Assembly (NCBI GenBank): GCA_903916255.1
Contig: CAIWVW010000082.1
Span: forward strand, 1 to 52,173
DNA: 52,173 nt
Direction: 5' to 3'
Source of the DNA: an uncultured Bacteroidota bacterium
GTDB lineage: Bacteria > Bacteroidota > Bacteroidia > JABEUT01
The position numbers and the translations under genes were made by a program. Below, in pieces: positions 15,021-21,180 of this stretch. The notes under the pieces are model-generated. The model was not told the DNA's origin. It saw only the letters and a program-made list of their open reading frames with translations, and ran no database searches. How positions within the stretch are numbered: position 1 is the stretch's first letter; every line of letters begins with the position of its first letter.

Positions 15021-17366
15021 ATGGTAAAAAACTTATTGATTGTAGAGTCTCCTGCCAAAGCAAAAACGATTGAAAAATACCTTGGGAAGGATTTTATAGT
15101 CAAGTCGAGCATAGGACATATTCGTGACCTTCCGGAAAAAGGAATTGGGATAGATATTGAACATGACTTTGCCCCTGCCTATGAAGTTTCTGCCGATAAA
15201 AAGAAAGTAGTAGCCGAACTTAAAAAGCTTGCCAAAGAAGCAGATACTATTTGGTTAGCGACAGATGAGGACAGAGAAGGAGAAGCTATTGCATGGCATT
15301 TACTGGAGGCGCTCGGAATTAAGGAAAGCAAAACCAAAAGGGTTGTTTACCATGAAATTACCAAGAGTGCTATTTTAAAAGCAATTGAAAACCCTCGGAG
15401 TATTGATAAGGCTTTAGTGGATGCGCAACAGGCACGCCGCATACTGGATAGATTGGTTGGATATGAACTCTCTCCTGTATTATGGAGAAAGGTAAAACCT
15501 TCACTTTCTGCCGGAAGGGTGCAATCAGTTGCAGTTCGATTAATTGTAGAACGGGAAAGGGAAGTAAACAGTTTTGTATCTGTTTCTTATTTTAAAGTGG
15601 ATGGTTTGTTCAACGCGAACAACACCAATTTCCATGCGGAATTAGATAAAAGATATGAAAACGAAAGTCAGGCAAATGATTTTCTTGCCCGAATAAAAGG
15701 CGCAGAGTTCAAGGTTAAAGATTTAGAAAAGAAACCTGCGAAACGCTCTCCATCGGCACCATTTACTACTTCTACCTTGCAACAGGAGGCAAGCAGGAAA
15801 TTAAGTTTTTCTGTTTTGCAGACCATGCGTGTAGCACAGAGTTTGTATGAGAAAGGGGATATAACTTATATGCGTACTGACTCCGTAAACCTTTCACAGC
15901 AGGCTATTGACGGGGCAAAAGCGGAGATTGAAAAATCATTTGGTGCAAAATACGCACAAACAAGGCAATATAAAACCAAGTCATCGGGAGCGCAAGAGGC
16001 CCACGAAGCTATCCGCCCTACTGATTTTTCAGCCAAGGAAATTGCAGGGCATGATAGTAATGAAGCCCGTTTGTATGATTTGATTCGCAAGCGTACCATT
16101 GCTTCGCAAATGGCGAATGCTGAAATTGAAAAAACGGTTATTACCATAGCACAGAATAAAACAGATGATAACTTCATCGCAACCGGGGAAGTAATTACGT
16201 TTGATGGATTTTTGCGTGTTTATTCCGAATCGGATGATGATGCGGAAGAACAGGATAATTCGGAAACACTTCCAATGGTGAAAGCAGGGGATAATTTGAA
16301 CTTTTTGGAAGCAAACGCTACCCAACGGTTCCCCTCTCCTCCACCCAGATATACAGAAGCAAGTCTGGTGAAAAAGCTGGAAGCACTTGGTATCGGAAGG
16401 CCTTCTACCTATGCGCCTACCATTTCAACAGTGCAGAAAAGAGGCTATGTAGTGAAGGAAAATAGGGAAGGTACCCCAAGGCCATATAAAGTGCTTACGC
16501 TTAAAAACGGAGAGATTAAATCAGCTACTAAAACTGAAAATACCGGTGCAGAAAAATCAAAACTTTTCCCTACGGATATTGGTTCAGTGGTAACTGATTT
16601 CCTGATAGAAAATTTTGGGGAAATCCTCGATTATAACTTCACTGCTCACGTAGAGGAAGAGTTCGATATTATTGCCGAAGGTAAATTGTCGTGGACCAAA
16701 ATGCTACATCAGTTCTACGACCCTTTCCATGCTACTGTAACAAAGGCCACTGATGTAAAAAAGAAAACATCGGGTGAGAAATTATTGGGTCAGGATGCCA
16801 ATGGCAAAAACGTATATGCTAAAATAGGCCGCTACGGACCGATGATTCAGATTGGTGATTTTGCTGAAGGGGAAGAAGAAACCAAAGCGGAAGACAAGCC
16901 AAAATACTCCAAAATGCGTGCGGACCAACGTATGGAAACCATTACCTTGGAAGAAGCATTGGATTTATTTAAGATGCCAAGAAACATTGGCAAATTTGAA
17001 GATAAGGACATGGTAGTAGGTATTGGAAGGTTTGGCCCTTACATCCGGCATGATGGGCTTTTCGTTTCCATTCCTAAAACAGATGATGCTTTTACGATTG
17101 GTGAAGAAAGAGCCATTGAGTTAATTAAAGAAAAAAGGCAAAAAGAAATAGAAAAAAATATTAAGACCTTTGCCCATGACCCTGAAATAAGAGTGTTGAA
17201 AGGAAGATTCGGCCCATATATTACAATGGATAAGAATAATTATAAAATACCAAAAGGAAAAGAAGCTGCTGACCTTACATTAGAGGAATGTCTGGAGATA
17301 ATTAAGGCAGAAGATGCCGCGCCAAAGAAGAAAGGAAGATTTGCTCCCCGAAAAAAAACAAAATAG
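15021..17366 (+). CDS. topA: DNA topoisomerase I (type IA)
   Basis: Relaxes negative supercoils through a 5'-phosphotyrosine link. 781 residues. The Toprim domain holds LLIVESPAKAKTIEKYLG (Glu of the metal site) and WLATDEDREGEAIAWHL (the DxDxE triad), then SAGRVQSVAVRLIVERE and the catalytic tyrosine Tyr283 in GDITYMRTDSVNLS. The C-terminal part (from about 590) lacks the Cys4 zinc fingers of the E. coli enzyme. Instead it has three repeated GRxGPxI units (KIGRYGPMIQIG, GIGRFGPYIRHDG, LKGRFGPYITMD), the zinc-free repeat type, and a Lys-rich tail ending APRKKTK that likely binds DNA. Start ATG at 15021 is clear. A GxxExxY gene follows 29 bases downstream. Confidence 0.96.
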   Translation: MVKNLLIVESPAKAKTIEKYLGKDFIVKSSIGHIRDLPEKGIGIDIEHDFAPAYEVSADKKKVVAELKKLAKEADTIWLATDEDREGEAIAWHLLEALGIKESKTKRVVYHEITKSAILKAIENPRSIDKALVDAQQARRILDRLVGYELSPVLWRKVKPSLSAGRVQSVAVRLIVEREREVNSFVSVSYFKVDGLFNANNTNFHAELDKRYENESQANDFLARIKGAEFKVKDLEKKPAKRSPSAPFTTSTLQQEASRKLSFSVLQTMRVAQSLYEKGDITYMRTDSVNLSQQAIDGAKAEIEKSFGAKYAQTRQYKTKSSGAQEAHEAIRPTDFSAKEIAGHDSNEARLYDLIRKRTIASQMANAEIEKTVITIAQNKTDDNFIATGEVITFDGFLRVYSESDDDAEEQDNSETLPMVKAGDNLNFLEANATQRFPSPPPRYTEASLVKKLEALGIGRPSTYAPTISTVQKRGYVVKENREGTPRPYKVLTLKNGEIKSATKTENTGAEKSKLFPTDIGSVVTDFLIENFGEILDYNFTAHVEEEFDIIAEGKLSWTKMLHQFYDPFHATVTKATDVKKKTSGEKLLGQDANGKNVYAKIGRYGPMIQIGDFAEGEEETKAEDKPKYSKMRADQRMETITLEEALDLFKMPRNIGKFEDKDMVVGIGRFGPYIRHDGLFVSIPKTDDAFTIGEERAIELIKEKRQKEIEKNIKTFAHDPEIRVLKGRFGPYITMDKNNYKIPKGKEAADLTLEECLEIIKAEDAAPKKKGRFAPRKKTK

Positions 17367-17395: not shown

Positions 17396-17824
17396 ATGCC
17401 ACAAAATCCCGAAAACACCAAATCCCACGAAAAAAACTTTGAGGCCATACCAAACGATTTAGAAGTGATTGGGAAAAAGATTGTTGATTCGGCATATACA
17501 GTGCATAAAAGATTGGGACCCGGGCTTTTAGAAAAAGTTTATGAAATTTGTTTATGCCATGAATTGGAAAAGCGCGGATTAAATTACATACGTCAAATGG
17601 ATATTCCAATAAAATATGATGGAATCACATTTGAAGAAGGGTTACGTTTAGACATTTTAGTGGAAAATGAAATAATCTGTGAAATTAAAGCTGTTGATTT
17701 GATAAACCCTGTCTGGGATGCCCAAGTTCTTAGTCATTTGAAATTAACAAATAAGCGATTAGGTTATTTAATTAATTTTAACGTTGCAAATATTGGTCAA
17801 GGTATTAAACGATTTGTTTTGTGA
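17396..17824 (+). CDS. GxxExxY protein (PD-(D/E)XK nuclease-like)
   Basis: 142 residues from the ATG at 17396 (a TTG at 17381 is less likely). It has the family signature GPGLLEKVYE (Gly43, Glu46, Tyr49) and the PD-(D/E)XK core with RLDILVENEIICEIKA (Asp86, Glu96, Lys98), then WDAQVLSHLKLTNKRLGYLINFNV. The nuclease core is intact, but no activity is established for this family that I can name. The gene is framed by 37-bp imperfect inverted repeats: the left arm begins at its second codon and encodes residues 2-14 (PQNPENTKSHEKN), and the right arm begins at the stop codon. This, and its place between topA and an arginase-like gene, suggests a mobile or passenger cassette. Confidence 0.9.
   Translation: MPQNPENTKSHEKNFEAIPNDLEVIGKKIVDSAYTVHKRLGPGLLEKVYEICLCHELEKRGLNYIRQMDIPIKYDGITFEEGLRLDILVENEIICEIKAVDLINPVWDAQVLSHLKLTNKRLGYLINFNVANIGQGIKRFVL
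17399..17435. repeat. Left inverted repeat of the GxxExxY cassette
   Basis: 37 bases starting with codon 2 of the GxxExxY gene. Compared with the reverse complement of 17825-17861, 31 of 37 positions match without gaps; the core CACCAAATCCCAC is identical. Confidence 0.8.
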
Positions 17825-17861
17825 TTTTTTTGTGGGATTTGGTGCTTTAGTGTTTTAGTGG
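17825..17861. repeat. Right inverted repeat of the GxxExxY cassette
   Basis: Begins directly after the stop codon of the GxxExxY gene (T run, then GTGGGATTTGGTG) and is the inverted partner of 17399-17435. It ends 22 bases before the next ATG at 17884. Confidence 0.8.
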
Positions 17862-17883
17862 CTACGTTGTAATTATTGAAAAA

Positions 17884-19062
17884 ATGGAAATAAAAAATTA
17901 CCTCACACCGGCAGATATATATGAACGCCTTCCAACCGAAGAAGTTCAGGACTGGGAACAATATCAATGGGGTAACCATATCAGGAAATATACGGAATCC
18001 GGTTTCCCAAATTTAGATGGGGTAAAAGTTGCACTTATCGGTATTGGGGAATCTCGCCATTCGCTTGGCAACGAAGGTTGCAATGCCGCACCGGACAAAG
18101 TGCGTGAGCATTTTCTAAAATTATCTGCAATCAATGGAGTGAGCATTGCTGATATTGGTAACCTGATACTTGGACAAACGCCGATAGACACCTATCATGC
18201 AGTAGAATTTGTTTGTTCGGAATTATTAGAGCGGAATATTATTCCTATTATTATTGGCGGCAGCCAGGATATTACATTCGCTAATTATTTAGCTTATCAA
18301 AAATTACAACAAACAGTAAACCTTGTTTGTGTTGACCGCAAAGTTGACCTTGGCGTTTCGGAAGATACCGTTGACAACAACTCCTATTTAAGCAATATAA
18401 TCCAGCACCCTTCGGGTTTGCTTTTCAATTTGAGCCTTGTAGGTTACCAAAGCTACTTTGTAAACGAAGAAGAAATTGAAACATTGAAAAAAATGTATTT
18501 TGATGTTTACAGGCTTGGAGTTATACAATCAAAAAAGGAAGAAGCAGAGCCTATAGTACGAAGCGCCGATATATTAAGCTTTGATATTTCTGCCATACGC
18601 ATGTCGGATGCACCTGCCTGTGCAAACACTACTCCTAATGGGCTTTATGGAGAAGAAGCCTGCCAGATTATGCGCTATGCCGGTATGAGCGATAAACTTT
18701 CGTCAGTTGGGATTTATGAATTGAATCCTTCATTTGATAACCGCGGACAAACGGCCCATTTGGCAGCACAGATGATTTGGTATTTCCTGGAAGGATTTTC
18801 CAATCGTAAAAATGACATACCTGATTTATCAGGGAAAGATTACATGAAATACAGGGTAGCCATTAAAGCACCCGAACATGAATTGGTGTTTTATAAAAGT
18901 TTGAAAACCGACCGTTGGTGGATGGAAGTTCCATTTAAAGTGGATTCCAAATTGAAATTTGAAAGGCACCATTTAGTCGCTTGCTCATACGATGATTATT
19001 TGCTTGCCTGTGCCGAAGAAATGCCCGACCGCTGGTGGCAGGCTTTCCAAAAGTTGAATTAG
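17884..19062 (+). CDS. Arginase/formiminoglutamase-fold protein with altered metal site
   Basis: 392 residues with the ureohydrolase fold: VALIGIGESRHSLGNEGCNAAPDKVREH, IPIIIGGSQDIT, VNLVCVDRKVDLGVS, ILSFDISAIRMSDAPAC and an extra C-terminal domain of about 90 residues. The manganese ligands are only half present: GGDH is GGSQ (His to Gln), DAHxD is DRKVD (His to Lys) and DxD is DIS (second Asp to Ser). An active arginase-type binuclear Mn site is therefore unlikely, and the protein may bind a ligand or have a changed chemistry. Bacteroidota genomes often annotate relatives as formimidoylglutamase; I do not adopt hutG despite hutU at 29005-31017. ATG at 17884 starts MEIKNYLTP. miaA follows 30 bases later. 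Confidence 0.85.
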   Translation: MEIKNYLTPADIYERLPTEEVQDWEQYQWGNHIRKYTESGFPNLDGVKVALIGIGESRHSLGNEGCNAAPDKVREHFLKLSAINGVSIADIGNLILGQTPIDTYHAVEFVCSELLERNIIPIIIGGSQDITFANYLAYQKLQQTVNLVCVDRKVDLGVSEDTVDNNSYLSNIIQHPSGLLFNLSLVGYQSYFVNEEEIETLKKMYFDVYRLGVIQSKKEEAEPIVRSADILSFDISAIRMSDAPACANTTPNGLYGEEACQIMRYAGMSDKLSSVGIYELNPSFDNRGQTAHLAAQMIWYFLEGFSNRKNDIPDLSGKDYMKYRVAIKAPEHELVFYKSLKTDRWWMEVPFKVDSKLKFERHHLVACSYDDYLLACAEEMPDRWWQAFQKLN

Positions 19063-19995: not shown

Positions 19996-20954
19996 AAATA
20001 CAACCAATAAAACTTGAATTTCTTCCGGCTGAAACGAATGGTAGGCATTGGTACCTTTATAAATGAAACCGCACCGAAAGCAGCCTTTAACGGAGCCGAC
20101 TTAGTGGGGATTTTTGTCAAGTCAACATCGAGTGAAACATAATATTTCCTGTAACGGTCAAAAAACAATTCATTTCCGTTAGCATCATATACAGGCGGGT
20201 TGGTTACAGCGCTCACCATTCCTTCGGCACCATAGCCAAAATCGAGGCATGCCCAGCCGGGGATTTTGTAGCCTTTGGGTAGAAATGAAGCGACTGCTAT
20301 GGATACCCAATAAGTTTGCCCGTTATAATCCTTAAGCATTTCTTGCCAGATATTATCGCCCAATTCTTCCGGATGGTACTTGCTATATTCCGAAGGATGG
20401 AAGGAAATTTTAAGCCCTATGCGTTGTTCACCCCAGCCTGTTTCCTGAGATAAAAACAAACTGGCACCGGTGGTATTGGCAATCATATCGCCATACGAAA
20501 ACCCCCATTCCGATGAAAACCCGTCAAATACTTCGATATTAGTTTGAAAGGCCATACCCAAACTTGTGCCATAAACCGCCGCGGGAAGTTGACGAACACC
20601 ACACCATTGGTATAATGCAGCTGTAAGTCGGCTTATAGTATATGCTGTTAGGCAATGCCCAAACTTATCCATTTGTTTCCATTCCTTATTATCATCGAAA
20701 AAGTGGAAAGAAGATTGGGGGTAGTTTTTATACCACAATATATTCAAACCTGCCATCGAAGTTGCATAAAAAGTACCCTCTCCGGCAAGCAAAGGAATTA
20801 AGCGGCTATTGTTTACATTTGGCGAATTAGCAAAAAAATTACCTCCATTTTGACCAATGCAAGTTGATGAAAATAAGCACATTAATGCTATTCCATGAAA
20901 AAATGACGGAGAACATATAGTAGAAATGAAATATTTTATACTTTTGCGACCCAT
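19992..20954 (-). CDS. DUF2279 family envelope protein
   Basis: 320 residues. An N-terminal signal-like segment (about 19-35, FHGIALMCLFSSTC) follows a basic start. The DUF2279 signature is seen in WKQMDKFGHCLTAYTISRLTAALYQWCG (the DKxGH motif), then YGTSLGMAFQTNIEVFDGFSSEWGFSYGDMIAN, the region shared with YfiM-type proteins, followed by an aromatic-rich C-terminal part ending FKFYWLYF, consistent with an outer-membrane strand. Role unknown; an envelope location is inferred. It meets miaA tail to tail with a 4-base overlap. Its first codons contain the -7 box of the divergent Lys-rich gene, so the two starts are closely linked. Confidence 0.82.
   Translation of the reverse strand: MGRKSIKYFISTICSPSFFHGIALMCLFSSTCIGQNGGNFFANSPNVNNSRLIPLLAGEGTFYATSMAGLNILWYKNYPQSSFHFFDDNKEWKQMDKFGHCLTAYTISRLTAALYQWCGVRQLPAAVYGTSLGMAFQTNIEVFDGFSSEWGFSYGDMIANTTGASLFLSQETGWGEQRIGLKISFHPSEYSKYHPEELGDNIWQEMLKDYNGQTYWVSIAVASFLPKGYKIPGWACLDFGYGAEGMVSAVTNPPVYDANGNELFFDRYRKYYVSLDVDLTKIPTKSAPLKAAFGAVSFIKVPMPTIRFSRKKFKFYWLYF
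20939..20946 (+). promoter_or_regulatory. -7 box TACTTTTG for the Lys/Ala-rich gene
   Basis: Perfect TAnnTTTG match 33 bases before the ATG at 20980. It lies inside the first codons of the divergent DUF2279 gene (start at 20954). Confidence 0.6.
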
Positions 20955-20979
20955 TATTAACCAACAAAAATCATTTAAA

Positions 20980-21180
20980 ATGAAAAAGTTATCTATCGTT
21001 GCTGCTATTTTGTTCGCTTTCGGAACAGTTACTTTCGCTCAAAACGCAGCTCCTGCTGCTAAGCCAGCTGACAAGAAAGCTGCTCCTGCTAAGACCGACA
21101 AGAAGATGGACAAGAAAGCTGACAAGAAAGCTTCTGACAAGAAGATGGACAAGAAAGCTGCTCCTGCTGACAAGAAATAA
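20980..21180 (+). CDS. Secreted Lys/Ala-rich small protein
   Basis: 66 residues. A clear signal peptide MKKLSIVAAILFAFGTVTFAQ is followed by a mature part made almost only of Ala, Pro, Lys and Asp: PAAKPADKKAAPAKTDKK, then repeated DKK-M/A/S-DKK units (MDKKADKKASDKKMDKK). The DNA repeats GACAAGAAA and GCTGCTCCTGCT, so length could vary by slippage. A longer frame from 20926 exists but the ATG at 20980 gives the signal peptide. It has its own promoter and a strong terminator, so it is a stand-alone, possibly highly expressed gene. Low complexity prevents a functional call; polyelectrolyte binding in the periplasm or at the surface is only a guess. Confidence 0.82.
   Translation: MKKLSIVAAILFAFGTVTFAQNAAPAAKPADKKAAPAKTDKKMDKKADKKASDKKMDKKAAPADKK

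Follow-up and report, generated by a model that had tools for sequence, protein, structure and literature searches.

GxxExxY nuclease genes between inverted arrays of short repeats, a possible class of single-gene mobile elements

Why should a small gene lie between inverted repeats, one of which also encodes the start of its own protein? The question is raised by a GxxExxY gene in the window, by which we mean the whole stretch of DNA analysed (52,173 nt, from an uncultured Bacteroidota bacterium). To our knowledge, the GxxExxY family has no known role. The gene and its surroundings are as follows.

15021..17366, + strand: topA, left neighbour, ending about 30 nt before the GxxExxY ATG
17396..17862, + strand: probable mobile unit, its ends set by comparison with elements at unrelated loci, L071 (genome G036) and L076 (genome G017)
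17396..17824, + strand: GxxExxY gene, 142 amino acids from the ATG; predicted PD-(D/E)XK nuclease (TIGR04256 and PF13366)
17398..17435, + strand: left arm, with repeats CACAAAA, CCCGAAA, CACCAAA and CACGAAA; doubles as codons 2-13
17825..17862, - strand: right arm, an inverted copy, with repeats CACTAAA, CACTAAA, CACCAAA and CACAAAA on the - strand
17884..19062, + strand: arginase-like gene, right neighbour

The unit in the window and its protein

The two arms are ungapped inverted repeats that are identical at 32 of 38 positions. The earlier note had reported the same alignment as 31 of 37 positions (17399-17435 and 17825-17861), and its placing of the left arm from codon 2 and of the right arm directly after the stop agrees with the start codon at 17396-17398 and the TGA at 17822-17824. 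The arm alignment scores 47, against a best of 35 and a mean of 18 in 5000 shuffles of both flanks; with none of the 5000 near 47, chance pairing was ruled out. Both arms contain four short CACNAAA-type direct repeats, and those of the left arm are spaced by 8, 8 and 10 nt, as they are in related elements of genomes G002, G036 and G017. The unit measures about 467 bp (median of 493 bp in 162 relatives) and has no Rfam match. The window's own genome (G000) carries three GxxExxY genes, all with inverted arms and with a different motif each time (CACTAAA, CACGGAG and CGCGGAT). A strict-pattern search of this genome found no further copies of the window's arms, and a looser pattern found 21 sites, which are of other arm types. 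Elsewhere in the window, a short ORF (20926-21180) starts like a signal peptide and ends in a low-complexity tail of Lys/Ala/Asp repeats (DKKMDKKADKK).

The protein belongs to the GxxExxY family by its matches to TIGR04256 (E=1.4e-40; 138.3 bits, cut-off 35) and PF13366 (PDDEXK_3; E=1.1e-38; 132.6 bits, cut-off 22). Its active-site residues are D86, E96-x-K98 and Q110. An AlphaFold2 model (pLDDT 89) has the PD-(D/E)XK fold, and its best match among solved structures is the Cas4 protein SSO0001 (Z 9.6, rmsd 3.3 over 98 residues); the model also resembles Hjc resolvases, and the fold search gave Cas4/Hjc-like matches of middling Z. A sequence search of the PDB found no match. By fold and by its D...ExK residues, the window protein is a member of the PD-(D/E)XK superfamily, and DNA cleavage is predicted from the model and the sequence. 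Among 162 GxxExxY proteins, the catalytic D and E are each present in 161 and the K in all 162; the Q is found in 154, and 161 have Y or H at the position of the tyrosine that follows. The dN/dS ratio between related copies is 0.08-0.11, which indicates purifying selection. GxxExxY shares with Cas4 and RecB-type nucleases the fold and the D, ExK and QxxxY residues, and it has been reported in place of a cas4 gene call (PMC8934634). Unlike those nucleases, it stands alone, with no helicase domain and with no cas genes adjoining the window copy. No match was found to PADLOC models of anti-phage defence (at E <= 0.1) or in phage records, and eight matches in plasmids were weak.

Arms across the family

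The gene is present in 187 of 296 near-complete Bacteroidia genomes sampled, and a collection-wide scan also found it in Proteobacteria, Chloroflexi, Planctomycetes, Acidobacteria, Cyanobacteria and archaea. The earlier note had proposed a survey of many GxxExxY genes for an inverted partner, and most of them have one: at an alignment score of 30 or more, inverted arms flank 162 of 220 genes, pooled from three samples that range from Bacteroidia to archaea. In the first sample (27 Bacteroidia genomes), arms were found at 66 of 83 loci, compared with 3.6% of 6428 upstream-downstream pairs drawn from different genomes. The second, collection-wide sample of many phyla gave 56 of 72 (control 9.6%), and a further Bacteroidia sample gave 40 of 65 (control 4.8%). 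About a quarter of the loci have no arms at this threshold. None of 30 ParE genes from the sampled genomes has inverted arms. Neighbouring ORFs passed in 4 of 129 cases, all of them other small repeat-flanked genes: two four-helix-bundle genes, one DUF559 gene and one IS200-like transposase.

Similar layouts were seen around other small genes. Genes of the four-helix-bundle family PF05635 (L236-L265) have inverted direct-repeat arms in 13 of 26 cases (control 0.5%), and such arms also surround four-helix-bundle genes at L080:4856-5255 and L086:1325-1685, in both cases with motifs different from those of GxxExxY elements (AGTTTAAAGTT, TTAGGTATTAGG and GTCAGTTATCAGT across these genes). At L086:4177-4507, inverted arms rich in CCCCCTTTTAAAGGGGG flank a DUF559 gene, which is from another PD-(D/E)XK-like family.

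An arm usually consists of two to four units of CRCNRAK or a similar motif, with a period of mostly 7-10 nt. The two arms of one element differ at 10.5% of unit positions compared with 36% of spacer positions. Elements from different genomes have more similar arms the more alike their proteins are (Mantel r 0.54, with none of 2000 permutations as high), and the same correlation holds over 162 elements (r 0.44, none of 1000 permutations as high). Conserved units between freer spacers, together with arms that follow the protein, suit sites that are read by the protein in DNA. The repeats are most simply explained as putative binding sites of the GxxExxY nuclease, judging from sequence comparison.

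The window's left arm translates as MPQNPENTKSHEKN, and residues 1-14, which the arm encodes, are predicted to be disordered (pLDDT < 50). The genes of closely related elements begin with the same arm. The suggestion that the recurrent N-terminus is a translated arm rather than a protein motif holds for the window's arm class; the start at codon 2 is special to that class. Of the 162 elements, 39 have an arm that runs into the first codons, and in 89 it stops upstream, at a distance of up to 60 nt.

Empty sites, boundaries and gene-less copies

The topA/arginase-like junction is occupied by the unit in G000 and G002 and is empty, with about 10-18 nt between the genes, in the same-genus genomes G007, G004, G009 and G008. 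The empty sites sought at this junction thus exist, and the gene is not fixed there. The insertion most simply took place in the common ancestor of two sister species. Likewise, the trpE-trpG junction is occupied in L174 and L196 and empty, with a few nucleotides, in L170. The boundaries of the unit are sharp. The window unit and L071, an element of another family at an unrelated locus, match from ATGCCAC to GTGGC, that is, over 17396-17862 and no further, which supports the reading of gene and arms as one transposable or gene-conversion unit. Two copies in G017 at different loci, with genes 91% identical, match to 15 nt and 4 nt outside the arms. In 59 pairs of related elements at unrelated loci, no match extends more than 40 nt past an arm.

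Units lie between genes of operons. Where the orientation of the neighbours was readable, both run along the unit in 80 cases and both against it in 3. The occupied junctions, whose genes were named by inspection of flanking protein sequences, include topA-arginase-like, nuoJ-nuoK, nuoK-nuoL, trpE-trpG, trpD-trpC and the two halves of metH. The co-orientation would be explained if units were expressed by read-through, or if insertions against the direction of transcription were lost. In several Proteobacteria, differing units occupy differing junctions of the trp operon (L143, L146, L170, L174 and L196). A junction with an upstream aldehyde-dehydrogenase-like gene is occupied in several Bacteroidia families (L031, L302, L304, L305, L309, L297 and L349), either by an old insertion or as a repeated target.

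The strong co-orientation would also be expected if the arms acted in RNA, as a long-range stem like that of 23S rRNA intervening sequences, excised from transcripts so that insertion into an operon is tolerated. The genes associated with those sequences, which encode a four-helix-bundle protein (PF05635, TIGR02436), are likewise small ORFs between inverted direct-repeat arms. Their protein, however, is unrelated and their repeat motifs are different, and the GxxExxY arms have no G-U signature of an RNA stem: mismatches in 129 elements comprise 117 of the sense G-U type versus 174 of the antisense type and 368 transversions. The arms are arrays of direct repeats whose spacers are free to differ, and the window unit lies between protein genes. 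An RNA stem is therefore very unlikely, and the reading was rejected on mismatch type and spacer freedom.

Many arms occur without a gene. A generic three-unit arm pattern was hit 207 times in the 28 genomes that have the gene and once in the 12 that lack it (Fisher p = 0.0015), and the reversed pattern, used as a control in the surveyed genomes, has none. Many of these hits are hairpins of one arm and its inverted copy. The gene-less hairpins of G036 have arms equal to those of its resident full unit L078, and the solo copies in the window's genome have the arms of its resident C31 unit. Tandem units of about 147 bp, each such a hairpin, follow directly downstream of a GxxExxY unit at L221 (G030:C13:27600-28450), and similar tandem layouts lie beside L020 and L296.

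The outer ends GTWACTACTCAG are common to hairpins and full units in G017, G036 and contig L126. Loci with these ends and 8-bp duplications are L071, L087, L056, L010, L082 and L126, with the short units L461-L466 and L491-L496. Target duplications of 8 bp (matching at 7 of 8 positions or better) accompany 25 of 33 pairs of GTWACTACTCAG ends and are absent from shifted control positions. Pairs with exact duplications fall into two sizes: 17 hairpins of 90-250 bp and 4 GxxExxY units of 430-700 bp; the ranges 250-430 bp and 700-4000 bp are empty. The sole gene between the exactly duplicated ends is GxxExxY. Some G017 hairpin units (L461, L465) contain a palindrome, CCTGCCTGCCGGCAGGCAGG, that is missing from near-identical others, as if a second repeat had inserted into them.

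Beyond these ends, a plain scan for duplications beside the arms found no general duplication, and a wider local-alignment scan found two. L016 (G031) has an 8-bp duplication with ends other than GTWACTACTCAG, which leaves intact the overlapping stop and start codons of its two neighbour genes. L027, inserted inside an hsdS-like gene, has a 23-bp direct repeat instead of 8 bp, and hsdS homologues in plasmids match too weakly to confirm the rejoined reading frame. Candidate duplications at L020, L296, L193 and L123 were set aside as tandem or repeat-derived in appearance. An insertion sequence has inverted ends with a constant target duplication; here the length is 8 bp in G017, G036, G031 (L016) and L126 and 23 bp in L027, and none is recognisable at the window copy.

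Taken together, the generality of the arms, their coupling to the protein, the boundaries, the empty sites, the hairpins and the 8-bp target duplications make it probable that gene and arms form one mobile unit, as these traces suggest. A resident, immobile housekeeping nuclease with regulatory repeats around it would account for the purifying selection and for junctions occupied in several families. It is contradicted by the empty sites, as well as by unrelated flanks, intragenomic copies, hairpin derivatives and target duplications, and we consider it highly improbable.

Candidate mechanisms of spread and nearest known designs

In the boldest reading, to which we give a little under an even chance, GxxExxY genes define a very widespread class of single-gene mobile elements without a classical transposase, in which the element's own PD-(D/E)XK nuclease recognises the iteron-like arms and drives the spread of units and hairpins by transposition or homing. 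In the main explanation, which we hold as probable, the arms, as inverted arrays of two to four short direct repeats, would be bound by the nuclease. The unit has inserted between co-directional genes of operons and spawns gene-less hairpins, and DNA cutting by GxxExxY would drive the spread, either through transposition of the unit or through copying of the unit into hairpins by break repair.

The chemistry that joins ends at GTWACTACTCAG and generates the 8-bp duplications may belong to another enzyme. GxxExxY proteins that are just 25-67% identical have these ends in common within a genome, and close relatives elsewhere do not have them; the ends thus belong to the genome and not to the protein lineage. 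This favours a transposase acting in trans with homing by GxxExxY, or fast decay of ends after insertion. An ordinary DDE transposase could accordingly move the unit in trans, with GxxExxY as a passenger that spreads through homing: its nuclease would cut the arms of gene-less hairpins, and repair would then copy the gene into the loop. This is a serious possibility, if somewhat short of an even one, and it suits both the arms, which follow the protein, and the hairpins and full units that have the same ends and duplications in two size classes. However, no transposase gene was found between GTWACTACTCAG ends in the stretches examined, which were chosen around known ends, and these ends are confined to a few genomes, most units, including the window's, having no recognisable outer ends.

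Alternatively, GxxExxY may itself be the transposase of a single-gene PD-(D/E)XK transposon, and the hairpins would then be non-autonomous copies of that transposon. No gene other than GxxExxY was found between the ends, the arms follow the protein, hairpins are almost confined to genomes that have the gene, and the nuclease residues are conserved. Yet the outer ends do not track the protein, which has no known transposase (strand-transfer) fold, and we know of no PD-(D/E)XK enzyme that joins DNA ends on its own. We regard this alternative as a real possibility, only a little less likely than movement in trans.

The nearest known designs are REP/RAYT and insertion sequences with their MITEs, and neither uses an enzyme of the GxxExxY type. 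As in REP/REPIN systems with a RAYT (TnpA-REP, a Y1 HUH transposase), a single gene lies between inverted, palindrome-forming repeats, many gene-less hairpin copies occur in the same genome, and the repeats follow the enzyme. In contrast to RAYT, the GxxExxY enzyme is a Cas4/RecB/Hjc-like PD-(D/E)XK protein and not HUH, its arms are arrays of 7-mers, and some lineages have 8-bp target duplications; no Y1 HUH transposase lies beside the repeats at the window unit. With insertion sequences and MITEs, the elements of G017, G036 and L126 share inverted ends, 8-bp duplications and short gene-less forms. The GT-starting GTWACTACTCAG ends with 8-bp duplications recall the IS66 family; of the features of that family (GTAA ends, 8-bp duplications and an IS66 transposase), the first two occur in only a few genomes, and the stretches examined showed no transposase. 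The sole ORF between the window's arms is the PD-(D/E)XK nuclease and not a DDE, HUH or serine/tyrosine transposase, and, unlike the ends of insertion sequences, GxxExxY arms co-diverge with the nuclease. PD-(D/E)XK homing endonucleases share the nuclease fold, and the coupling of arms and protein would follow from site-specific cutting that leads to copying of the gene; GxxExxY differs in having no intron, intein or single fixed site, and its arms are inverted repeats at the ends of the unit. No description of arms around GxxExxY genes was found in the open-access papers searched, and an earlier description elsewhere may exist.

The arms give the GxxExxY protein a likely substrate. They would also account for some CACAGAG/CGCAAAG-like repeats that lie between genes in environmental genomes, and part of the annotated GxxExxY N-termini would be repeat sequence in translation. 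That four-helix-bundle genes have the same layout points to single-gene units with repeat boundaries as a wider set, and the 'uncharacterised' GxxExxY family seems to be the gene of a jumping element of a kind that has drawn little notice.
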